Positions 7,097-23,249 of a stretch of DNA of 23,370 nucleotides are shown piece by piece. Origin of the DNA: a virus. The stretch lies in IMG/VR virus record IMGVR_UViG_3300047481_002042, positions 1 through 23,370 of that record. The stretch is one strand, 5' to 3'. The position numbers were made by a program, and so were the translations under genes. Each line of letters starts with the position of its first letter. Position 1 is the stretch's first letter. The notes under the pieces were generated by a model, which saw only the letters and a list, made by a program, of their open reading frames with translations, ran no database searches and was not told the DNA's origin.

Positions 7097-7120
7097 AAAA
7101 AAGCCGGGTTATTTACCGGC
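7097..7120 (-). terminator. Rho-independent terminator overlapping the end of the double-leader gene
   Basis: On the minus strand GCCGG and CCGGC (7116-7120 and 7103-7107) form a GC stem around an 8-nt loop that contains the stop codon at 7111-7109, followed by a run of six T (7102-7097). The stem therefore uses the last codons of the gene. Confidence 0.75.
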
Positions 7121-7285
7121 TTTCTTTTCTTTGTCCTTCAAAGCTTTTTTCATCGGTTCTTTTTTATCATCGTCTTTATCCATATCAAGGAAATCAGGCT
7201 TCGCTTTCTTTTTTGCTTTTTTGGCTTCAGTAAGTATAGATTGTATCTCTTGTCTTATGATTTGTTTAAGTTCTGATAGTTTCAT
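7109..7285 (-). CDS. Possible internal in-frame start giving a 58-residue leader + basic-tail protein
   Basis: An in-frame ATG at 7285-7283 begins MKLSELKQIIRQ and is preceded by AAAGAAAAACAAGATAAT, an A-rich leader like those before accepted starts in this window. Initiation here would give a separate protein made only of the leader and the lysine-rich tail. The alternative is that this Met is simply internal and the leader was duplicated within one protein. The sequence alone cannot separate these. Confidence 0.35.
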   Translation of the reverse strand: MKLSELKQIIRQEIQSILTEAKKAKKKAKPDFLDMDKDDDKKEPMKKALKDKEKKAGK

Positions 7286-7609
7286 ATTATCTTGTTTTTC
7301 TTTTAGTCCGAATGGTTCTCCAGCTAATCCGTGAATTGTACTTCTAAATAGCTTTTGAGCTCCTTGTTGTATTGCGTTTACTATGTTTTGTTTGATTTGT
7401 GGATTTGTTAATATTACATTTACTTTTCCATTATCTGGGCTATGAAACATCGCTTGTATGCTAATGCTCATTTGATTATTGTCATCTATATGTAAATCAA
7501 CAGCTGGTAAGTCGTCAAACACATCAGTATCCCCAGTTGTAGCTGAATTTACTTCTAATACTGAGGCAACTTCCTCTCTGATAACCTGGATTAGATCTCT
7601 TAGTTTCAT
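7109..7609 (-). CDS. Leader-bearing head-associated candidate with two copies of the leader peptide
   Basis: The full ORF gives 166 residues from ATG 7609-7607. It has two parts, each starting with the same kind of amphipathic leader: MKLRDLIQVIREEVASVLE (residues 1-19) and MKLSELKQIIRQEIQSILTE (109-128). Between them is an acidic and beta/helical domain (20-105) with AVDLHIDDNNQMSISIQAMF. After the second leader comes a strongly basic, lysine-rich tail (KKAKKKAKPDF...KDKEKKAGK). The leaders end at or near (L/I)-x-E, the T4 prohead protease rule. It lies directly downstream of the major capsid gene and has its own terminator and promoter element. I infer an internal head protein; the folded domain is not one I recognise. 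It could equally be a fusion of two former genes. Confidence 0.75.
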   Translation of the reverse strand: MKLRDLIQVIREEVASVLEVNSATTGDTDVFDDLPAVDLHIDDNNQMSISIQAMFHSPDNGKVNVILTNPQIKQNIVNAIQQGAQKLFRSTIHGLAGEPFGLKEKQDNMKLSELKQIIRQEIQSILTEAKKAKKKAKPDFLDMDKDDDKKEPMKKALKDKEKKAGK

Positions 7610-7685: not shown

Positions 7686-9356
7686 TTACAAAGTATTAAG
7701 ATCCGCAACGTAAACCTTACCGTAGAATTCAGGACGAGTTACTACTTTCGCGTAACGAGTCATTACACCACGACGTGGAATGAAGTTATTTGGATCGTAT
7801 ACAAGTGGAGTCATCATTAGTGGGATGTATGGAGCGTAAACAGCACCTGTTTCAAGGAACTGAGATCCACGGAAGCCCATCAAGATTGTATTCTCTTGCA
7901 TGTATGGGTTCTTATAAACTTGGTAGCGGCTTGTGATCGAACCAACTTTCTGCACACCCATTGCAAACTTCATCTTCAATCCATCTGTATCAGCAGCGTA
8001 TCCTGGGATCGACTCGAGGATTGTAGCTACGTTTGGAGAACATACTAAGAAGTTAGCACCACCACGAAGGGTTTTGGCGTGAATTTGGTTAGATACTTTT
8101 TGAAGCTTAGTACCAAGAGTTTGGAACCAAGTACCTTGAATGTAGGCAGTACCAGTATACTCTTGAGTTTGAAGCGTTTGACCAGCTGCATTATACTCAC
8201 GACCGATTCTAGCTGACCAGTACTCAGTTGTAGCAGCTGCGTTAATAAGCATATCAAGAATCTCAAGGTCAATTTCCATTGACACGTATTCTGAAAGCAT
8301 GCTTGTTAATTCAGCTTCTGCATCCACTGAGTGGTAAGCGTTAAGATCTTGTGCAAATTCTGGAGTCCAGCTTGCTTTCAACTTACGGGTCTTAGCAGTT
8401 ACTGGAATTGAACGCATTTGCAATTCAATTTCAGGAATATTGAGGTTAATATCAAGATCCTGAGCACTTGTTGCCGATGCACGCTGAGTTCTGTATTCAA
8501 AATCAGAGCGGTTATCGTTTTGTGGTTGGATTGAGTATGATACCGCGGTAGCTACAGTAGCTCCTGACCATACGGCTGTAGATCCAGTAACTACGAACAC
8601 TAGATCATTACCACTCTTTCTAGTAAAAGCTGGTAAGTATTGTGTGTTTGCTGTTAATGCAGCGTTGTTTGATCCTGAGAGTGGGATGAAGCTTCTTACT
8701 GCGTACGGATCTGCGTTGGTATTCAACGTAAAGAAGTTTGAGAAGGTCAACGTTTTCCAGTTGTTAGTCAATGCGTGACCACCAACAATTGAAGCGGTAT
8801 AACCCCCATCAAAGTTAACATCAGATAAAGCAGCTGCACCAGTTGCAATTAGGCCTGATCCAGTACCGACATAATTCACAGAGAATCCAAAGCGACCAGC
8901 ACCATAAAGACCATCTGTAGCGTCAGTTGATGCAGTTGTGATACCTTGTAGTGTACCAACTTGATCTTTTGATCCTGGAGAGAATCCAAATGGCTGCTTA
9001 TCGGTACCGTATTTGAAGTCAAGATAGAACACAAGGCCTGAAGGCAAGTTCATCGGCTGTACAGAAACGAATTCTTTAGCTGCAATTTCAGCAAAGATAC
9101 GACGTACAAGCGGAAGAGCTACACCATGCCATTGTTCAAAGCCTGCTCCGGCTGATCCCATCCCAGATGATTCGGCTGAACCTTCCTTAATTAATTGTTT
9201 TGCTTGGTTTTCAAGAAGGACAGCTACGGTTGATTTCTCATTACCGCCTCTAAGACCTTCCAATAAACCTGTCTTTGTCCACTTATTGATTAGTGGTTTC
9301 ACTTCGGCCGCACGAGAGTAGTCGTTTGTGCCTTCGAAAAGATTTAGTTTTTCCAT
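7686..9356 (-). CDS. 23: Major capsid protein, T4 gp23-like
   Basis: This 556-residue protein has the gp23 layout. An N-terminal propeptide (about residues 1-58) is rich in charged helices and ends at LIKE|G (I56-K57-E58), a match to the gp21 cleavage rule. The conserved capsid core follows: FEQWHGVALPLVRRIFAEIA (about 73-92), then FVSVQPMNLPSGLVFYLDFKYG, a variable beta insertion with many Asn and Gly residues (about 140-290), the TRKLKASWTPEFAQDLNAYH segment, and EYVSMEIDLEILDMLI. The C-terminal part includes PYIPLMMTP and PRRGVMTRYAKVV. It forms the hexameric lattice of the prohead. It follows the scaffold gene by 30 nt and is followed by a strong terminator. There is no Shine-Dalgarno sequence even for this highly expressed gene. 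Confidence 0.96.
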   Translation of the reverse strand: MEKLNLFEGTNDYSRAAEVKPLINKWTKTGLLEGLRGGNEKSTVAVLLENQAKQLIKEGSAESSGMGSAGAGFEQWHGVALPLVRRIFAEIAAKEFVSVQPMNLPSGLVFYLDFKYGTDKQPFGFSPGSKDQVGTLQGITTASTDATDGLYGAGRFGFSVNYVGTGSGLIATGAAALSDVNFDGGYTASIVGGHALTNNWKTLTFSNFFTLNTNADPYAVRSFIPLSGSNNAALTANTQYLPAFTRKSGNDLVFVVTGSTAVWSGATVATAVSYSIQPQNDNRSDFEYRTQRASATSAQDLDINLNIPEIELQMRSIPVTAKTRKLKASWTPEFAQDLNAYHSVDAEAELTSMLSEYVSMEIDLEILDMLINAAATTEYWSARIGREYNAAGQTLQTQEYTGTAYIQGTWFQTLGTKLQKVSNQIHAKTLRGGANFLVCSPNVATILESIPGYAADTDGLKMKFAMGVQKVGSITSRYQVYKNPYMQENTILMGFRGSQFLETGAVYAPYIPLMMTPLVYDPNNFIPRRGVMTRYAKVVTRPEFYGKVYVADLNTL

Positions 9357-11908: not shown

Positions 11909-12526
11909 TTACATTACAGATAAAATGTCAGATATAAGTGTGTTTATTTTGTAGTATGGATCTTTTTTTGATGTGTTTACTCCTTCATTAAGTGGAGATA
12001 CAAAAGCACCTTGTGTAGATGGATTACTTACTAAGTCCCAGCAAACAATTTCAAAGTCGTCTTGAACTTCCACTCTACCTTCACCAATTTGCTTTACAGA
12101 CCCCATACCACGTGAACTAATCCCAAGTCTAATTCCAGCTTTGAGTAATTCCTTTGCTATGTTGCCAGCTGGGGTTGGTAGTATTTCTAGTTTGCCAAGT
12201 AGGTCATTACCACTCCACCAAAGATCTAATATATTGTGTGATACATTTTGTAGGTTTACAACCGAGGAATCTGGGTGGTCTAGTTCTCCTAATGCACGTC
12301 TTTCACTGATAAAGGCTTGTTTATACTTTTCAGATTCACGACGAAGTATATCGAGTGGATAAAGTCTACCATTTTGGTTGATAGCTTTATCTTGTGGTGT
12401 AGAGCCTCTTTGTAGGATACCTTGTACGATAAGGCGGCCGTCGTTTGCAGATAGTGATTCGTTTATCTGCTGTGGTGTTATCTCTAGTGCACCAATATAG
12501 TCGATTATAAGTTTCTTATTTTCCAT
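11909..12526 (-). CDS. 21: Prohead core protease, T4 gp21-like (peptidase S77 family)
   Basis: From ATG 12526-12524 this gives 205 residues; the ORF can be extended to a TTG at 12550, but the ATG better matches the length of T4 gp21 (about 212) and overlaps the upstream stop by 11 nt. Conserved gp21 features are NGRLYP (52-57), ALGELDHP (78-85, likely catalytic His84), DLWWSGNDLLGK (101-112) and GISSRGMGS (135-143, likely catalytic Ser). It is activated inside the assembled prohead, cleaves scaffold, capsid propeptide and internal proteins after (L/I)-x-E, and then destroys itself. This makes it the obvious processing enzyme for the many LxE-bearing leader proteins in the window. Confidence 0.93.
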   Translation of the reverse strand: MENKKLIIDYIGALEITPQQINESLSANDGRLIVQGILQRGSTPQDKAINQNGRLYPLDILRRESEKYKQAFISERRALGELDHPDSSVVNLQNVSHNILDLWWSGNDLLGKLEILPTPAGNIAKELLKAGIRLGISSRGMGSVKQIGEGRVEVQDDFEIVCWDLVSNPSTQGAFVSPLNEGVNTSKKDPYYKINTLISDILSVM

Positions 12527-12974
12527 ATAGCATTTTTCCAATTTCGTCAACCATTTCAGCTATCTTTGTGTATGCTAAGGTTGTTTTTTTCCAGTGCTTG
12601 TTATCGGAAACATTTGCTTCTTGTTTAAGCTTCATCGCATGCCTTACCGCTCTACGAGCTTCACGTAACATTTTATATACTTCAAGGATTTTAGTATTTA
12701 CTTTATATACACTAGTTCTAGTTGGATCTTTTTTGTAATCTAAATAGTTAGCTTCGTGTATTTTAACAAAATTCCTTTTTTTCTTTGGTGGTTTGACAAT
12801 GTATGTTTTATCAGCTCCAGTAGCTTTTGGACTTCCTGGATCGGTTGGATCGCCAGTAAAAGCAGCCGGTGTGTGAAATGCACCAGCACCATCGCTAGTA
12901 CTACCTTCTTTCATACGGCGCTTAACCTTCTTTATGTACTTTTTTACCTCAGAAATTCTATCTTGTGACAGCAT
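12516..12974 (-). CDS. Conserved protein of unknown function between gp20 and gp21
   Basis: This 152-residue protein starts at ATG 12974-12972 and overlaps the previous gene by 17 nt. It has a basic helical start (ISEVKKYIKKVKRRMKEG), a Gly/Ala/Pro/Thr-rich segment containing DGAGAFHTPAAFTGDP (about 27-42), a basic KPPKKKRNF stretch, then a long amphipathic helical region (85-150). I recall the 'DGAGAF.TP.AF.G' segment from proteins in the same position in marine T4-like phages, without a known function. It carries no leader and no enzyme motif. A head-assembly role is inferred from its place next to the protease. Confidence 0.72.
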   Translation of the reverse strand: MLSQDRISEVKKYIKKVKRRMKEGSTSDGAGAFHTPAAFTGDPTDPGSPKATGADKTYIVKPPKKKRNFVKIHEANYLDYKKDPTRTSVYKVNTKILEVYKMLREARRAVRHAMKLKQEANVSDNKHWKKTTLAYTKIAEMVDEIGKMLYGK

Positions 12975-13837: not shown

Positions 13838-15724
13838 TTACTCCTCCGGAATAATGTTATTTTCGTCTAATAATGTATTCTTATCTTTGTTTTCTACTAA
13901 AAGATCGCCGATAGACGTTTGAATCGATCTATTTTTGTAATCTTTTATTATAGACTCCTTCTGCCATAACCTAACCTTCTTCTCTTCTGATACATTTCTG
14001 TTTGCCTTATTTCCTAGAGGATCCCATCCTAGTGGATGTTCATGGGTACCATAAGTACCTGGTTCTGTTGGACGACCAGCTCCTGGCCAGCCACCTGGAG
14101 GTGCTTGCTCTCTTTCATCATAACCTTTCGGAATATTATTCATTCCGCCACCTTTATATAATGAAGCTATATCATGTGGTGTACCAAATGATGTACCAGT
14201 CTTAACAGGATCGTTACCTTCTGTTTTAATCTGCTCAAGACGGAATAACATCTTATGGTCACTAACTATGCGGTTTTGCTCTTTCAAATAATCCTCCTCA
14301 GTCATTTTGAATACATTTTCATATATCCAATTTCTACTAAAGAGTTTTTTATCAATCATATCGCCTGCAAGCGTTGTTTTCGATGTCCAAAGCTCAATTT
14401 TTTCTTTATCGTAGAGTGTTGATGGTGCTGTTAGGTTCAAAGAGAAATCAGCAATCTCAATATCATTAAAGCCTTGGATATATAAGTGAATGATTGCAAT
14501 TTTGTATAATTCAGATACGATTATCTTTTGTATACGTTCAATTGTTCTTCCAAATCTAAAGTCTTGTGCAGCTAATGTTGATTTACCTGATACATCTTCT
14601 TCAAATCCTAAGAATGCTTTTGGTATCTTCAATGCACCTAATAACCTACCTTTCAAGTAGTTTATATCTTCAATAGTCTCATAATTCAAGCCAGTGATAG
14701 TGTCTATTTGTGTTCCAGTGTCACCACCACGTACAGGAACATAAAAATCTTCAAGTATATTTTGCATGTTGTACTTGAGATTATAATCACCAGTATTTGG
14801 ATCTATAAATGGTACTTTCTTCATTTTATCCACCATAGCTTGCATATATGAATCTACTTCATTTGGTGGAATGTTACCAATATCTATTTTAAATACACGC
14901 TTATCTGGGGCTCTCATTATACGATGAATTAACATCGCATCTTCCATTAATGTAATTTGTTTCCACACTTTACGACCTGGTTCAATCAACGATCGGCCAT
15001 ATGGTAGGAAGTTGGTATCTGTGAGTAGTCTGAAGTGAGCAATCTCCCAGTTTTCATACTCTTCACCTTTAATCGATGCTATGTGGGATCTTGCACTTAA
15101 TGCTGAGTAATCTCTCTTGAATCTTACTTTGTGTGGGTTTTCTGGATCGAAGTTCTCTTCACGAATCATTTCGTAGGCTGCAATAGGATCTACTCCAACT
15201 ACACCAAACTTCTCCGCTACATTGAGTTTCAAAAAGAAGTCACCGTATTTTAGTACGTTGCGTGTCCACGGCCATAAATTAAACTCTACGTTGAGTACTT
15301 CATAAAATAAGTTATGCAGTACCTCTTTTACTTTTTCGTTTGACGCTTTTATTTCTAAAATATCACCATACTCATTTGTAGTTGTGCATTCATCAGCATA
15401 CACATCCAACGCAGAAGATATGATACTATCGGTATCCATAGCTTCGTAGTCTCTAAAGAGCTCTAATCGTGTTGCTAATTGTAGTTGTCCGTGATGAAAA
15501 CTAAATCCAGGTACATTTGTATATAGTCTAGAAAAGCGGTCAATTCTTCTGTTACTTTCTATATTCCCAGAAGATTGTATTTTGTCAATATCTATGACTT
15601 TAAGCTGATTGCCACCTAAATTGCGTATAATTACGTCAGTTGAGAATAGCTTACGCAGTCTATTAAAAACAGAACCAGGTTTGTATTCTGGTAACCCACT
15701 TTCTTCGTTTGAAAATTCAGCCAT
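13838..15724 (-). CDS. 20: Portal protein, T4 gp20-like
   Basis: This 628-residue protein has the gp20 pattern throughout: a VFNRLRKLFSTDVIIRN start region, SSALDVYADECTTTNEYGDI (about 103-122), PWTRNVLKYGDFFLKLNVAE, an AHFRLLTDTNFLPYGRSLIE segment, then DYNLKYNMQNILEDFYVPVR and TGLNYETIEDINYLKGRLLG, followed by LKIPKAFLGFEEDVSGKSTL. The C-terminal 100 residues are Pro/Gly-rich and less conserved (PPGGWPGAGRPTEPGTYG). It forms the dodecameric DNA-entry ring, nucleates the prohead and docks the terminase. It is longer than T4 gp20 (524 residues) mostly at the C-terminus. It directly follows gp17 here, whereas T4 places the tail sheath and tube genes between them. Confidence 0.95.
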   Translation of the reverse strand: MAEFSNEESGLPEYKPGSVFNRLRKLFSTDVIIRNLGGNQLKVIDIDKIQSSGNIESNRRIDRFSRLYTNVPGFSFHHGQLQLATRLELFRDYEAMDTDSIISSALDVYADECTTTNEYGDILEIKASNEKVKEVLHNLFYEVLNVEFNLWPWTRNVLKYGDFFLKLNVAEKFGVVGVDPIAAYEMIREENFDPENPHKVRFKRDYSALSARSHIASIKGEEYENWEIAHFRLLTDTNFLPYGRSLIEPGRKVWKQITLMEDAMLIHRIMRAPDKRVFKIDIGNIPPNEVDSYMQAMVDKMKKVPFIDPNTGDYNLKYNMQNILEDFYVPVRGGDTGTQIDTITGLNYETIEDINYLKGRLLGALKIPKAFLGFEEDVSGKSTLAAQDFRFGRTIERIQKIIVSELYKIAIIHLYIQGFNDIEIADFSLNLTAPSTLYDKEKIELWTSKTTLAGDMIDKKLFSRNWIYENVFKMTEEDYLKEQNRIVSDHKMLFRLEQIKTEGNDPVKTGTSFGTPHDIASLYKGGGMNNIPKGYDEREQAPPGGWPGAGRPTEPGTYGTHEHPLGWDPLGNKANRNVSEEKKVRLWQKESIIKDYKNRSIQTSIGDLLVENKDKNTLLDENNIIPEE

Positions 15725-15749: not shown

Positions 15750-17342
15750 TTATAGTAACCACGTTATGTCGTGATCAACTCCATCGATATTTTGTTTCCA
15801 GGGGTTGTTGTTTACAACTCTTTGTGTACCTGAGTAGAGACTTATTGTATTTTTTATACCATTAACTGCCATTTTGCTTAATTCGATCCCAGCTTGTCTT
15901 AGCTTTAGTGCTGTGTCACGTACCCATAAACCTTGTGCCCAGCTCATCACCAAATCGTCATTATATCCTTGTGCAGCCTCAGCTCTAGCGTTTTTCCATA
16001 CAAATACAAGGAGTTCATCCATAAGTCTTCTACTCCTTATTATACACCCTTTTTCTCGCATATACAACTCTAATTTACTAATAGCCAGCGGTCTAATCTT
16101 ACTACTTAGTGTAAACCCTGCAACCATGTCGCTTTTGTTGGCTACATCATATCCTTTCGTAAGGTATGTATCTGAGTCAAATACGTTTTCTTTATAGGAA
16201 TAGTAGATATTTTTATAATCTCTTTCCATTACTTGTTGGATTGTTGCCCATCCAACATTAGCATTTTCAATTACAAGCAATGCGTCATTATACTCAGTTG
16301 CAACACTGACAAGCATATTTCCAAAGTCTCTGGTTGTTAGTTGGCCTTTGTATTCAGCTACCTGTATTGCACTCTCTACATCTATAACGTGAAAGGCTGA
16401 GTAGTCGGATCCATCCCCACGAGCAACGTCGGCTGTGACTATGTAATCTCTTGTGTATGATGGTCTTTCCCAAACCCATATATTGTTGTCGAATCCTCTT
16501 TTTTCAATTGGATCTTGAGTATAGGTTTGTAGGTAGTATTGTAATATATCAGGCATTATGACTGTATTACCTGATGTTGAAAAGTCGCAATCACATTCCT
16601 GTGCTGCTAATCTTATACCTAATTCTACGTCTTGTTTATCTCGCCAAGATTGATCTCGTTCTGGATGAACTTGCCATGGTAGTCTTATTGTGTTAAATGT
16701 ATTTTCTCCTGACTCGGCTTTCACCCACATCTTATGGAAAAAATTACCAGTACCATTTGGGGTACTTAATAATACTGCTCTACCACCAGTAGACAGTGTT
16801 TGTTGCAATGATGCCCACAACTCCTCTGCATTATCAACGAAAGCTGCCTCATCTATAATTACTAATGATAGCGCTTCTGAACGACCTGATGTTCCAGTTG
16901 ATGCTACTGCTTTGATTTGAGATCCATTGCTTAGTCTAAGCGATAGTTTATTATCTTCCGCAGTCTTTAACTTAAGCCAACTTGGTAAGTTCTCATACAT
17001 TACTCGAACCTTAGTTACAAGGTTCTTTGATGTTGTTTGATCAATCGCAACTACTAGGATATTTTTATCATTATGAAATAGGATAGTCCATAATGAATAG
17101 CCAGCTATTAGTGTTGATATACCTAGCTGACGACTTTTTAGAATGATGTTACGATCGTGATCTTGGAATTGTTGTAATGCATCCTCTTGAAAAGGATATA
17201 GTTGAAACTGTATTTTCCCTCGAGTCGGGTGCTGTATCATGCAGTACTTTTTCATAAAGTAGACTGCTGACGTAGCGCATTTTACATACTCCTCTCTTAT
17301 TAACTGCTTAATTGGTTTTTGTGCACTACTACCATTAGACAT
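15750..17342 (-). CDS. 17: Terminase large subunit, T4 gp17-like
   Basis: This 530-residue protein has both terminase domains. The ATPase part shows the Walker A-like KSRQLGIST (69-77), Walker B LVIIDEAAF (160-168, D164/E165) and the coupling motif STPNGTGN (193-200). The nuclease part shows TADVARGDGSD (303-313, catalytic D305), LLVIENANVGW (355-365, E359) and a later YNDDLVMSWA that would supply the third acidic residue. It powers DNA packaging and makes the headful cut. The start ATG lies 1 nt after the stop of the spanin-like gene, without a Shine-Dalgarno sequence. It is somewhat shorter than T4 gp17 (610 residues). No small terminase gene is visible in this window. Confidence 0.97.
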   Translation of the reverse strand: MSNGSSAQKPIKQLIREEYVKCATSAVYFMKKYCMIQHPTRGKIQFQLYPFQEDALQQFQDHDRNIILKSRQLGISTLIAGYSLWTILFHNDKNILVVAIDQTTSKNLVTKVRVMYENLPSWLKLKTAEDNKLSLRLSNGSQIKAVASTGTSGRSEALSLVIIDEAAFVDNAEELWASLQQTLSTGGRAVLLSTPNGTGNFFHKMWVKAESGENTFNTIRLPWQVHPERDQSWRDKQDVELGIRLAAQECDCDFSTSGNTVIMPDILQYYLQTYTQDPIEKRGFDNNIWVWERPSYTRDYIVTADVARGDGSDYSAFHVIDVESAIQVAEYKGQLTTRDFGNMLVSVATEYNDALLVIENANVGWATIQQVMERDYKNIYYSYKENVFDSDTYLTKGYDVANKSDMVAGFTLSSKIRPLAISKLELYMREKGCIIRSRRLMDELLVFVWKNARAEAAQGYNDDLVMSWAQGLWVRDTALKLRQAGIELSKMAVNGIKNTISLYSGTQRVVNNNPWKQNIDGVDHDITWLL

Positions 17343-18093: not shown

Positions 18094-18431
18094 TGAATTA
18101 AGTTATTTTTTGTTGCTCTAAGCACACTCATAATTCCATCTTTATCTAATCCAAAGCCACCAACAATCTTAGTAACAACGTTTGTAATGTTGTCCACATC
18201 ATCACTTTCTGGAATCTCTTTGAGTTTTGAAAGATACTTGCTTGTTAACTTAGTCATCATTGCACCATAATCCTCATCATCAGTAGGCTCTTCTTCCTCA
18301 GGTTCCTCTTCAGGTTCTTCCTCAGTTGGCTCTTCTTCTGGTTCCTCTTCAGGCATTTCCTCTTCTGCTTCTAGAATTCGTTTGATTACACGACGTATTT
18401 CTTCGCGAAGTATTTGTTCTTTCCTTTTCAT
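18090..18431 (-). CDS. Leader-bearing acidic protein with Pro-Glu repeats
   Basis: This 113-residue protein starts at ATG 18431-18429, overlapping the upstream stop as TAATG. The leader MKRKEQILREEIRRVIKRIL is followed by ILE|A (residues 19-22) and then by a nearly pure Glu/Pro repeat (about 23-50) before a small helical domain (LTSKYLSKLKEIPESDDVDN). It shares the leader with the acidic core-like protein at 10792-11238 and has the same plan: basic amphipathic leader, acidic low-complexity part, small C-terminal domain. I infer a prohead internal or core protein. The function of the C-terminal domain is unknown. Confidence 0.72.
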   Translation of the reverse strand: MKRKEQILREEIRRVIKRILEAEEEMPEEEPEEEPTEEEPEEEPEEEEPTDDEDYGAMMTKLTSKYLSKLKEIPESDDVDNITNVVTKIVGGFGLDKDGIMSVLRATKNNLIQ

Positions 18432-18799
18432 TATTTTAGTGTTAGTAGGTATTTCAATTTATTAATAGCTTGCAACATTTCATCTCTAATATTTAGTAGA
18501 TCTGTGTCAGCTGCAGAGTCAAGTTGATTTGTTAGTCCTAATAGGAATTGTGTGGCATCATTTAAAAAGGATGGTATATCTATTTGATCCATATCTTTTA
18601 GTACTACACCATTGGTTTGTCCCAATTTAACTCGCCCATACTTACCCATATAAGCCTCAACAAAAGCATCAATAAGATCGTCTAGGCTGTCGTAAATACC
18701 ACCATACGCTTGGTGTCTAGCGTAGTGGTTTGTCTGCCAGTGAAATATTCGAAACTGCTGCTGCAGTTGTATGAACATAGCTACAAAACTAGTCTTCAT
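18431..18799 (-). CDS. Small Dps/ferritin-like helical protein (DUF5856 type)
   Basis: This 122-residue protein contains FRIFHWQTNHYARHQAYGGI (16-35), followed by YDSLDDLIDAFVEAY (36-50). The HW...H...D...E spacing recalls the Dps ferroxidase motif: H20-W21, H29, D44 and E48, with the D-to-E and second H-to-D spacings (4 and 15) as in Dps. The Asp expected four residues after the second His is a Gly (33), and the loop between the two His is three residues short. Dps proteins are about 160 residues with four helices, so this is a reduced version. I recall the family as DUF5856, found in large phages. Its ATG overlaps the previous gene by 11 nt. Metal or DNA binding is plausible but not shown. 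Confidence 0.75.
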   Translation of the reverse strand: MKTSFVAMFIQLQQQFRIFHWQTNHYARHQAYGGIYDSLDDLIDAFVEAYMGKYGRVKLGQTNGVVLKDMDQIDIPSFLNDATQFLLGLTNQLDSAADTDLLNIRDEMLQAINKLKYLLTLK

Positions 18800-19193
18800 C
18801 GTTTAAAATTTCTTTAAGTTTGATTGTTGGTTTATCTAGCATAGTATCAAACTTATTACCATACTTCTTTTTAATGTAGGATTTATTTTCCTTTTCAGTA
18901 GCCCTAGTTCTTTTTTCAGCTTCCTTTTCTGTTGTGGACTTTGTTTTCTTCTTTTTATTTGGCTCAATCTTTTTTTCAGCCAATACCTCACGAACAGACT
19001 CTGCGATAAGTTCTCTTAGTTTTGATATTTTTTTCATCGTATTTTCGTTAGCGTTGATATGTAGTGCCGCTATTTGTTTTTTTGCTTTTTCTTTAGTCAT
19101 CGGTTCTTTTGAAAAGCTTTTTGAAGTACCTTTCTTAAAAACCTTGTATACTGCGCCTTCTCCTTTTTTAACTTTTTTTATTTGATAGGGCAT
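18789..19193 (-). CDS. Two-module basic protein with an internal leader peptide
   Basis: This 134-residue protein starts at ATG 19193-19191 with a promoter-like element 10 nt upstream. Residues 1-48 are a small basic module with a YKVFKKGTSKSFSKEPMTKE segment and an IAALHIN end, a type found as stand-alone mini-proteins or domains in large phages. An internal Met at 53 then begins MKKISKLRELIAESVREVL, closing with VLAE|K, the same leader found at the N-terminus of other genes here. The remainder is a lysine-rich tail. Either the two modules were fused, or an internal ATG (19037-19035) makes a second, leader-first product. It is followed by overlapping genes down to the spanin-like one. An internal head protein role is inferred. 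Confidence 0.72.
   Translation of the reverse strand: MPYQIKKVKKGEGAVYKVFKKGTSKSFSKEPMTKEKAKKQIAALHINANENTMKKISKLRELIAESVREVLAEKKIEPNKKKKTKSTTEKEAEKRTRATEKENKSYIKKKYGNKFDTMLDKPTIKLKEILNDED
18975..19037 (-). other. Internal copy of the leader peptide with in-frame ATG
   Basis: This segment encodes MKKISKLRELIAESVREVL plus AE, in frame within the 134-residue protein. The ATG at 19037-19035 follows CGAAAATACG and could serve as a secondary start. It is the clearest example of the leader sitting inside a longer ORF, apart from 7226-7285. Confidence 0.5.
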
Positions 19194-19226: not shown

Positions 19227-19943
19227 TTACCACTTTCTACATGACCAGTATCTTGGTTTTGTTCTCGGACCTGGTGTTGCACAGCGGTGTCTTGCTCTAA
19301 ACGATCTACGTCTTGCCGGATTGCTCTTTTTGATTTTCATATTGGGATCACCAAAATTAACTTTAACTACATTTCCAGCTGGATTCTTGACGTATACTTT
19401 GAACTTTTTTACGTCTCCACGCATAGGTTTACCTAATTTAACTTTGCGGCCTCTGTATTCGGCTTCCATTAAAGTCATCTTGCCAGCTTTAATATCTTCC
19501 ATTAAAGCAATGGCGCATTCATTACAGATTGATATGTGTTCCATAGATTCTTTTGGTTTATTTCCCCAATTAGCAGCTCCAACCTTTCTACACTTTGATA
19601 GTGCTAATGATGCAACTGCAGACGGCCAGACTTTGTATCTAGCTTTTACTTTATGATAGCAGGCATCTCTTTTTGCTTCTTCTTCCAAGAAACTCTCAGC
19701 TTTGGGAGTTCTCTTACCCATTCCCACTCTACGCTTTTGTGCTACTAGTGCCTTCTTTTCTTTTTTATCAAACGCTTTCCAAGTTTTAGGTGTATCTTTT
19801 GATACTTTTTTACTTGGCCGACATTTTTTTACACCTTTAGTTTTTGAACTACCACAAGGATTACCATTTTGATCAACCCATTTTTCTTTTACCCAACGGC
19901 GTAGATCCTCATCTAACAACTCTTGTAGTTTAATTGCGCTCAT
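19227..19943 (-). CDS. Basic three-module protein with LxE tripeptides at module junctions
   Basis: I chose the ATG at 19943-19941, 1 nt after the preceding stop, giving 238 residues. Module 1 (about 12-82) is the lysine-rich LRRWVKEKWVDQNGNPCGSS and KKCRPSKK type seen in many phages and giant viruses. Module 2 (about 90-130) has DACYHKVKARYKVWPSAVAS and KCRKVGAANWG, the DUF6321 type. Module 3 (161-238) has YRGRKVKLGKPMRGDVKKF and a Arg/Cys-rich end (RRSFRARHRCATPGP then RYWSCRKW). FLEE|E (85-89) lies between modules 1 and 2, and LME|A (158-161) exactly before module 3. A C139-x-x-C142 pair is present. It looks like a cleavable polyprotein of DNA-binding basic peptides, packaged in the head. 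The individual functions are unknown. Confidence 0.8.
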   Translation of the reverse strand: MSAIKLQELLDEDLRRWVKEKWVDQNGNPCGSSKTKGVKKCRPSKKVSKDTPKTWKAFDKKEKKALVAQKRRVGMGKRTPKAESFLEEEAKRDACYHKVKARYKVWPSAVASLALSKCRKVGAANWGNKPKESMEHISICNECAIALMEDIKAGKMTLMEAEYRGRKVKLGKPMRGDVKKFKVYVKNPAGNVVKVNFGDPNMKIKKSNPARRRSFRARHRCATPGPRTKPRYWSCRKW

Positions 19944-21044: not shown

Positions 21045-23249
21045 TTATAACTTGTATTTTGTAAATAAATTTTGTAATCGATCGTTAAATTCCTTGAAAG
21101 CTTGAGTTATCTCTGATTTAACTTTATTTGAGTATGCCTCCGCTTGTTCCTTTGATTGTAATGTTTTTGCAAAAACTTTGCCACCAGTTGAGGATATTGT
21201 GATTTCCATTTTTAAATCTACACCAGGCATAGCTTGACTCTCTCTTTCAACTTCATGCTCAAAGTGCAATCTCAGGTTTAGAGCTGGTGCTGTGGCTACA
21301 ATCTCTTTTTCTTCTGTTAGATTTTCTTTTACACCAAAGCCACTTTGTAGTCCTTGTGTTAAAAATTTTCCAGTAATCTTAAATGGATGACCTTTATATA
21401 TTGCATCATCGTTGATTACAATTCCTTCATGCTTTTCTAGATCTCCAATCTCGCTGGTTGCATTGTTTAAAATCTCATCACCTAATTTCACAATTGCTGT
21501 ATATACAACGCTATCATTAATTACTTTTTGCAGGTCTAGATTTGGAAAATCCTGAGCTATATTTTTGCTATCAATTGCTTTTATATATTGCTGACGTGTA
21601 ATTAGTGGTGTTTGAAATTTCACATCCTTTAGCCAATCTCCTAATGTTTTTTCAACCGCAGTGCCTTGTGGATAAAGCGTTATCTTTTCAGATAATGGTC
21701 TTTGTAGGTTTGGAGTTGCTTTGAATTTAACATCAACTGTACCTAATACTTTAAAGCCATTTTTCTCAGCTACAACATTTAGCTTATTAATATAGTCTTG
21801 CATAGCCTGCTTATCGTAGCTTATATTGTTAGCTTCGCGAGACTTTACTCTACCAGTTTTAGGATCTACATTCTTAGGTTTTATTTCTTTTAATCCGTGG
21901 ATAGCTAAGAAGTTGCCTATATCGCCATATCCAATTACGTTTGTTTGTCCTTCTACGTATTCAATATTTAGTAGGATGTTTGGATTATCTATTAAGCCAA
22001 GTCGTTTTAACTCATTTCCTGTGGATGGAATTGCGTCGTTGAAGATTTTTAATACTTTACCACCTATCTTTATGAAGCCATGCTCTTGTCCATCTTTGGC
22101 TGGAAAGCGTGTTGGTAGGTCTGCCGTCGTAATTCCCTTAATATCTAAATCGCTTGCAGATCCTCTATCCATTGCAAACTCACGTTTACCATTAATATCG
22201 GCTAATCTTACCGATGCATTCACTCCATCTATTTTTACACTAGTACCACCTCTTTTTATAGACTCAATTGATTTTTTGAATACATTAATCAATCCTTCTC
22301 CAGTATTAGTAAAGTCAAAGGGGTGAGCCATATGACCTCCAGCACCACCCTCAGATAGCATACCCTTTGCAGCTTTTTTAATTTTTGGTGCTAGGTAAAG
22401 TCCCAACGCTACTATAGAGCCTCCAGGTATAGCTGCTATTCCTACTGCTTTGAGTGTTGTTATTAGTGCAGCTTTTTCTTCAGCATTTAGCTTTTCTCGA
22501 CGAACTAGTTTTGATAATCCACTTTTAGCATCACCTCCCTGCTCTTTTGCTTTTTGTATAAATTGCTTAATCTTAGAAGTATCAAAAGCCACCTCCTTTA
22601 TATTTGTTGGATTTTTTAGTAGTGTATTGGTGACTTTTTCTAACTCATCATCAGATAGGTTGGGGTAGTTTGATTTTATATTCTCAATATCCTTTTTTTG
22701 TATATCCCTTCTTAATACACTAGCGCTGATAGATCCATTAAATCCATCGGTTCTATTACTATAGTTAAGTGGAGTTACATCTACTGGTAATTTCACAGCC
22801 ATTACTCCTTGTGGAATGAATCGACCATCTTTAGTACCTTGTTTTTTGTATTTTTCATTGATAGCTTGAACAAACAAGTCTGACCTTTTGGCATCATCAC
22901 CTTTGCTACTTGCTGCCATTGCAAGTTTGGCTTTTGAGTTTTTAGACAATCTCAAAGCATACTCATAAGCAGCTTGCATTGGGTTATCGAAGTTTACTGG
23001 AATTACTTTTATTTTTGAGTTTGTAGCTAGAATATTCCAGATTTTTATAGATTCCTCTCTGGTAATTCCTTCACGCTCAACCGGTCCTACCATTACCAAC
23101 ACCTCTTTTACATCTTGTCTTTCTGCATATTTATCTGCTAATTGAAGATGTCCAGCGTGTGGTGGTTTAAATCCTCCTGGAAGGAGTACAGTGATGCCTT
23201 GCTCCTCTAGCAAGATACTTTCTACTAGATATTTAACTAAATCGTTCAT
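21045..23249 (-). CDS. Leader + cytidylyltransferase-like domain + DUF6267/ligase-like nucleotidyltransferase fusion
   Basis: This 734-residue protein starts at ATG 23249-23247. Residues 1-17 (MNDLVKYLVESILLEEQ) are leader-like with LLE|E. Residues 18-185 form an HxGH nucleotidyltransferase domain: PGGFKPPHAGH (24-34) and the SISASVLRRD signature (173-182), as in NMN adenylyl- or cytidylyltransferases. A helical linker with a hydrophobic, Gly-rich part follows (262-289). At 298-310 it reads LSE|GGAGGHMAHP, the usual start of DUF6267-type proteins. The ligase-like half has motif I KIDG (339-342), LLNIEYVEG (426-434), HEGIVI (607-612) and FKITGKF (623-629), as in covalent nucleotidyltransferases. 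Substrates are unknown; NAD-related chemistry or nucleic-acid end repair are both possible. LTE|E (644-647) precedes a C-terminal domain. The start ATG overlaps the preceding TGA. Confidence 0.85.
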   Translation of the reverse strand: MNDLVKYLVESILLEEQGITVLLPGGFKPPHAGHLQLADKYAERQDVKEVLVMVGPVEREGITREESIKIWNILATNSKIKVIPVNFDNPMQAAYEYALRLSKNSKAKLAMAASSKGDDAKRSDLFVQAINEKYKKQGTKDGRFIPQGVMAVKLPVDVTPLNYSNRTDGFNGSISASVLRRDIQKKDIENIKSNYPNLSDDELEKVTNTLLKNPTNIKEVAFDTSKIKQFIQKAKEQGGDAKSGLSKLVRREKLNAEEKAALITTLKAVGIAAIPGGSIVALGLYLAPKIKKAAKGMLSEGGAGGHMAHPFDFTNTGEGLINVFKKSIESIKRGGTSVKIDGVNASVRLADINGKREFAMDRGSASDLDIKGITTADLPTRFPAKDGQEHGFIKIGGKVLKIFNDAIPSTGNELKRLGLIDNPNILLNIEYVEGQTNVIGYGDIGNFLAIHGLKEIKPKNVDPKTGRVKSREANNISYDKQAMQDYINKLNVVAEKNGFKVLGTVDVKFKATPNLQRPLSEKITLYPQGTAVEKTLGDWLKDVKFQTPLITRQQYIKAIDSKNIAQDFPNLDLQKVINDSVVYTAIVKLGDEILNNATSEIGDLEKHEGIVINDDAIYKGHPFKITGKFLTQGLQSGFGVKENLTEEKEIVATAPALNLRLHFEHEVERESQAMPGVDLKMEITISSTGGKVFAKTLQSKEQAEAYSNKVKSEITQAFKEFNDRLQNLFTKYKL

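Follow-up and report, generated by a model that had tools for sequence, protein, structure and literature searches.

In a T4-like virus of aquatic bacteria, several small basic head proteins appear to be joined in one chain and separated from each other by sites for the viral head protease. The chain, P0001, is encoded on a virus record of 23,370 bases that was analysed over its whole length (hereafter the window; such records are often a fragment). We hold it very probable that P0001 is a polyprotein of basic internal head proteins processed by a gp21-type enzyme, with the reservation that cleavage and head location are inferred and that mature fragments have no support from mass spectrometry in the data at hand. 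What we observe is a set of modules with sites between them, conservation of these sites, a protease gene in the window and, in phages devoid of that protease, the same modules as separate genes. A reading as a prohead-protease polyprotein had been put forward in an earlier note made without database searches. The conservation of the border sites in homologues and the presence of an S77 gene in the window now support it; cleavage, residence in the head and the DNA-condensing or host-acting roles that it envisaged remain undemonstrated. The relevant features of the locus are as follows.

19227..19943, minus strand: gene P0001, 238-aa putative three-module polyprotein (open reading frame and translation)
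19908..19943, minus strand: residues 1-12, MSAIKLQELLDE, candidate capsid-targeting leader ending LDE|D (position and motif, by analogy only)
19680..19907, minus strand: module N (DUF5872) with a basic tail, residues 13-88 (PF19197, 2e-12, residues 12-74)
19677..19688, minus strand: predicted cut LEE88|E89 at the N/M border (relatives carry a site at the equivalent place)
19497..19679, minus strand: module M (DACYHKVKARYKVWPSA..CRKVGAANWG) and CxxC segment, residues 89-149 (HMM matches)
19464..19496, minus strand: short linker from LME149|D to LME160|A, residues 150-160 (11 residues)
19461..19472, minus strand: predicted cut LME160|A161, just before module C (129 of 132 distinct fused modules of this type have hydrophobic-x-E at exactly this position)
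19230..19463, minus strand: module C, residues 161-238 (78 residues), with two Cys (phrog_7595, 1.3e-10)

The frame opens with an ATG at 19943 and closes with a stop at 19227-19229; the coordinates first given for the gene were thus right, and its strand, left unstated at the time, is the minus strand. The three basic Cys-bearing modules originally read from the sequence alone were recovered by Pfam and PHROG matches. DUF5872 scored 48.1 bits over residues 12-74, against a Pfam gathering threshold of 27.5, and module M, whose pattern is DACYHKV..VWPSA..CRKVG, matched phrog_727 (8.7e-17) and also phrog_38880. With a net charge (K+R-D-E) of +15 for residues 13-88, +5 for residues 89-160 and +22 for residues 161-238, module M is only mildly basic. 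Binding of the modules to DNA is inferred from this charge only, and a host-acting role cannot be excluded. No peptidase domain was found in P0001 by Pfam and PHROG profile searches. Weak Pfam matches, such as Phage_terminase (0.0063, below the cut-off), were set aside. Three relatives (L001-L003) have the same N-M-C order, with a best segment 74-79% identical to P0001.

The FLEE|E (85-89) and TLME|A (157-161) junctions singled out in the earlier note are exact in the translation. The complete list of [LI]xE sites in P0001 comprises LQE|L (6-8), LDE|D (10-12), LEE|E (86-88), LME|D (147-149) and LME|A (158-160), and allowing V, M or F at the first position adds just VKE|K (18-20, within module N) and FLE|E (85-87). 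Two of these sites, LDE12|D, which closes the possible leader, and LME149|D, come in addition to the two borders named originally. When P0001 was shuffled 20,000 times, an [LI]xE near residue 88 together with one exactly at 158-160 occurred in a fraction of about 0.0001. At the N/M border, these three relatives carry LEE|K (L001) and IDE|E (L002 and L003).

The border preceding module C was analysed in a collection formed by the best 80 of 570, 597, 599 and 538 confirmed candidates. The relatives consequently lean towards near ones, and one of the search patterns favoured free forms. Module C was matched 177 times, in 177 of 186 loci; 171 matches begin at model position 1, and the remaining six were excluded from the border count. 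Among the 171, the module follows a hydrophobic-x-E motif and two further residues in 153, stands free as Met-Ala-x-Tyr in 15, and makes an exception in 3. Merging identical rows left 12 free and 132 fused modules, 129 of the latter with the motif (L, I, V, M or F at P3) at the border. To reduce shared descent, the fused rows were thinned to 44 clusters in which the upstream stretch (-30 to -6) is less than 40% identical. In these clusters of unrelated upstream sequence the motif occupies the border register in 42 of 44, but any of 27 other registers in only 0-5 of them. Ala stands at P1' in 42 clusters and the residue just before the border is Glu or Asp in all 44, while P3 is Leu in 22, Ile in 9, Val in 8, Met in 4 and Tyr in 1. 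The strict L/I-x-E form accounts for 30 of the 44 and V/M-x-E for 12 more; processing at V and M would need an enzyme looser than the strict rule. Inside the module, the motif is found once in 132 copies.

Fused borders departing from the motif are VYNE|A, LFD|A and TFE|A (3 of 132), with a further LFD|A in L283; the exceptions lie at loci L164, L127, L139 and L283. PMC9026906 reports that processing of the T4 IPIII leader depends on its residues 8 and 10 and is blocked by an Asp at position 10; by the T4 rule, the LFD|A borders of L127 and L283 should therefore resist cleavage. The C modules of L127 (LFD|A), L139 (TFE|A) and L283 (LFD|A) group on the tree with a support of 85. On the same tree, free and motif-bearing states interleave, with 5 changes, although resolution is poor, 38 of the 68 inner branches being open.

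The same data might be explained if the chain were never cut, the hydrophobic-x-E|A motif being a binding or folding element of a permanent fusion, with an acidic stretch upstream that serves to neutralise the basic domain or to anchor it. Charge pairing of this kind is plausible: the 60 residues upstream of module C contain 16.0 Glu and 12.1 Asp per 100, facing 29.2 Lys plus Arg per 100 in the module itself, where Glu makes up only 0.8% of residues vs 16% in the preceding 60. The CxxC segment before module C (CxxCA..[LM]E[DE]), which recurs in 7 distinct proteins including P0001, also speaks for an uncut fusion. But only positions -5 and -3 are conserved upstream of the module, position -4 and everything beyond being variable, and free C modules lack the motif and begin at the very next residue after its position. 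All 12 distinct free-standing modules of the Met-Ala-x-Y form start in this way; removal of the initiator Met would therefore yield an N-terminus identical to that of the cut product. Furthermore, an AlphaFold2 model of module C alone, without the motif, is confident (mean pLDDT 85.1, pTM 0.68). Counted from the predicted mature end, the first strand of this model starts at residues 2-3, which brings the border up against the fold. These considerations make a permanent fusion an unlikely explanation, and we continue to favour proteolytic release of module C. Other structural comparisons gave little: the model of full-length P0001 was uninformative (mean pLDDT 42), a fold search of the PDB with the module C model returned nothing at E<=0.001, and sequence comparison with PDB entries gave no convincing match (best E 0.054). 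All matches of the module C model in BFVD at E<=0.001 were phage proteins, one of them named XkdF.

Modules N and M were treated likewise, leaving aside the C row of the joint count, which mixed in free genes with an open frame running upstream; the separate count given above was used instead. Module N had 195 matches, 166 of them distinct, in 78 clusters, and a hydrophobic-x-E lies within 12 residues upstream in 70 of the 78, as opposed to 12 of 78 in a control stretch. Module M, present in 366 phage records, had 180 matches (156 distinct with a full start, 95 upstream clusters), with the motif at most 12 residues upstream in 77 of 95 clusters vs 45 of 95 in the control stretch. In most of the 18 M clusters without the motif within this distance, one stands a little farther away on the upstream side, with a K-rich or KDKKGKGSG tail after it. 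Conservation of LxE-type sites at the borders, proposed earlier as a check, was thus borne out for all three modules (C, 129 of 132 distinct), only loosely so for module M. The companion proposal, depletion of the motif within modules, stood for module C and failed for module N, where an internal W[FV]KE is retained by 25 of the 78 clusters.

The presumed cutting enzyme is encoded in the window 7 kb from P0001, which lies in a T4-type late block with all genes on the same strand:

11909..12550, minus strand: S77 prohead protease, gp21 homologue, presumed cutting enzyme (PF03420, 8.8e-29; phrog_207, 7.9e-55)
7686..9356, minus strand: major capsid protein, gp23 homologue (32% identical to T4 gp23)

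The protease is 34% identical to T4 gp21, with His92 and Ser145/146 aligned; we take this His and Ser to be the catalytic pair. In the gp23 homologue, IKE58|G59 is a predicted site, judged by eye to lie close to where T4 gp23 is cut. Judging from sequence and gene order, 15750-17342 is presumably terminase-like and 13838-15724 portal-like.

Among 25 named phage genomes with at least one module, S77 is present in 10 and absent in 15. In the S77-positive genomes, 15 of 17 module copies have a hydrophobic-x-E within the 20 residues that precede them; of the two misses, one is an N module at the start of a P-SSM2 protein and the other an ACG-2014f copy cut by the end of the fetched stretch. In the S77-negative genomes only 1 of 19 copies, that of CRP-6, has such a site, and all copies have at most 17 residues ahead of the module, being free or behind short leaders. 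The contrast is therefore one of architecture, free genes on one side and chained modules with cut sites on the other. It is not free of ancestry, since S77 status follows T4-like descent. Intact modules without LxE at the border, which the earlier note would have counted as a refutation, do exist; nearly all are free-standing genes, the named ones from genomes without an S77 protease. The note's statement that the modules occur separately or in other combinations elsewhere was confirmed by the searches for relatives. In CRP-901, M, N and C occupy neighbouring separate frames (M and N unannotated there), CRP-7 has M and N as separate frames, and HTVC106P has separate C and N plus an M-like gene recognised by eye. 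The record label HVA1 on module C of CRP-901 and CRP-902 is a label only, and a literature search on it gave nothing relevant among the entries listed. In Roseobacter phage CRP-6 (L094, 1135-1824, plus strand), module C is fused ahead of an XkdF head protease (Peptidase_S78_2, 7.2e-18).

Location in the head is supported by the protease rule, by the free N or C genes of P-SCSP2 and MedDCM-S30-C28, which sit between those for scaffold and capsid (both phages are Autographiviridae; the P-SCSP2 locus, L186, holds a free-standing N homologue), and by the join to XkdF. The M-bearing protein of S-SCSM1 is labelled a virion protein in its record and the S-B43 homologue a structural protein. Mass spectrometry of S-SCSM1 virions detected 45 phage proteins (PMC9602691).

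That the borders are truly cut, but by a host protease or a second phage enzyme, would accommodate V and M at P3 and the few borders without the motif, both unlike the T4 rule, as well as the failure to find S77 on most IMG/VR contigs tested. Only 11 of 64 were positive; most are fragments, and the figure among contigs of at least 100 kb is 6 of 9. Against another enzyme, S77 occurs in 10 of 10 named genomes with site-bearing chained modules, the motif is that of T4 gp21 (PMC9026906), and the window itself encodes an S77 protease with aligned His and Ser. We regard a different protease as quite improbable, and S77 remains the enzyme of choice. Release of modules by internal translation starts, in keeping with the existence of free module genes and with a Met134 preceding the C propeptide of P0001, can hardly be credited, as no Met lies just ahead of the border, where Glu or Asp stands in 44 of 44 clusters.

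In T4, internal proteins (IPs) carry targeting propeptides of 10-19 residues and gp21 cuts after L/I-X-E (PMC9026906). By the published rule, the leaders of IPII and IPIII are 10 residues long and end in IAE|A, and that of IPI is 19 residues long and ends in ITE|A. Close analogues of such leaders start 7 distinct C-bearing proteins, for example MKTFRDYLSE|T, MKSFREYLAE|S and MKTLKEYITE|A. The T4-like 10-mer is found at 7 of 818 Met upstream of module C; a comparison set of 2,222 other ORFs, each 100 aa or longer, has it at 4 of 10,872 Met, and shuffled first 10-mers gave a mean of 0.004. P0001 itself does not match the strict IPIII-like pattern: its 12-residue leader is proposed from position and shares a looser form with MIKLHDLMNE|D, the start of L002 (L003 begins MIRLQDIMNE|D).

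We envisage that the chain would enter the prohead core, probably by means of the N-terminal leader and the propeptides between modules. There, the S77 protease would cut behind four hydrophobic-x-E motifs (LDE12|D, LEE88|E, LME149|D and LME160|A) and thereby free N, M and C as basic modules; the leader and the linker pieces would be discarded as in T4. The modules might then remain with the packaged DNA and enter the host; DNA binding and a role in the host are speculative.

Several other genes, in the window and at other loci, deserve mention. Next to P0001, the frame at 18789-19193 (minus strand) holds a basic PYQIKKV..KQIAAL module and then a helix ending VLAE|KKIEPNKKKK, and looks like a second, smaller polyprotein; a DUF5856 protein (4e-20) is encoded in the same cluster at 18431-18799 (minus strand). 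The small protein at 7109-7609 (minus strand) has two leader-like helices, one N-terminal and one internal, MKLSELKQIIRQEIQSILTE|AKKAKKKAK, and may represent another processed basic peptide. At 21045-23249 (minus strand), a 734-aa protein starts with MNDLVKYLVESILLEEQ, followed by a weak cytidylyltransferase-like stretch (0.025). In L106 (1816-3234, plus strand), a cytidylyltransferase domain (PF01467, 2.1e-8) and module C share one open frame, with C behind IFE|A. Enzymes of cytidylyltransferase type have been reported in cyanophage virions (PMC10665884, PMC9602691 and PMC3037559), so packaging of the 734-aa protein by way of a leader is conceivable. In L078 (7562-10246) and L074 (6251-8632), module C ends long proteins with peptidoglycan-binding domains (PF01471). 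An 870-aa chain in L167 (643-3252) displays six spaced VNE tripeptides, each before E, S, A or G, as if punctuating segments.

We lean, by a narrow margin, towards a broader view in which hydrophobic-x-E punctuation is a general cargo-loading code in T4-like phages of aquatic bacteria: leaders and acidic linkers would chain interchangeable basic modules, and sometimes enzymes, into polyproteins that enter the prohead as a unit and are freed by S77, while phages without S77 would keep arrays of small genes. If so, fusion state would follow protease content, which would account for modules being chained in one phage lineage yet encoded separately in others. Virion cargo could be predicted from cut sites, and under the border rule many unannotated proteins of abundant aquatic phages would become predicted head peptides, packaged and with defined N-termini, for which mass spectrometry offers a direct test.

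No description of such a polyprotein or of its processing was found in the literature, as searched through titles and abstract openings with subscription papers outside the search, and the domains concerned, DUF5872 (module N), DUF6321 (a further module of the P-SSM2 chain) and phrog_7595/727, are marine phage domain names without a function. Closest are T4 IPI, IPII and IPIII, which share the S77 protease, the L/I-x-E cut, a short N-terminal leader and a basic mature protein (PMC9026906); unlike these proteins, which give one mature protein per gene, a chain of the P0001 type strings together two to three or more modules with sites between them. P0001 gave no meaningful sequence alignment with IPI, IPII or IPIII, but the IPs are poorly conserved among T4 relatives (PMC9026906), so the lack of homology is not decisive. 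The T4 core proteins gp22 and gp67 likewise undergo several gp21 cuts in one chain (PMC9026906), although their fragments are mostly removed, whereas the pieces of P0001 are conserved domains with separate genes in other phages. Ejection proteins of phiKZ and SPN3US are also packaged internal proteins matured by an S77-related prohead protease; there, the motif is different (A-x-E) and an N-terminal propeptide is removed from single proteins (PMC10052503). Polyvalent proteins (P1 DdrB and kin) resemble P0001 as multi-domain chains believed to undergo processing and to travel with the virion, but they carry an embedded peptidase (PMC5512222); Pfam shows no such domain in P0001, which would depend on the prohead protease instead. 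The parts of the P0001 system, a gp21-type protease and LxE sites, are ordinary; what the literature searched does not describe is their arrangement, a chain of conserved basic modules, by inference freed by the head protease, with free counterparts in phages lacking it.
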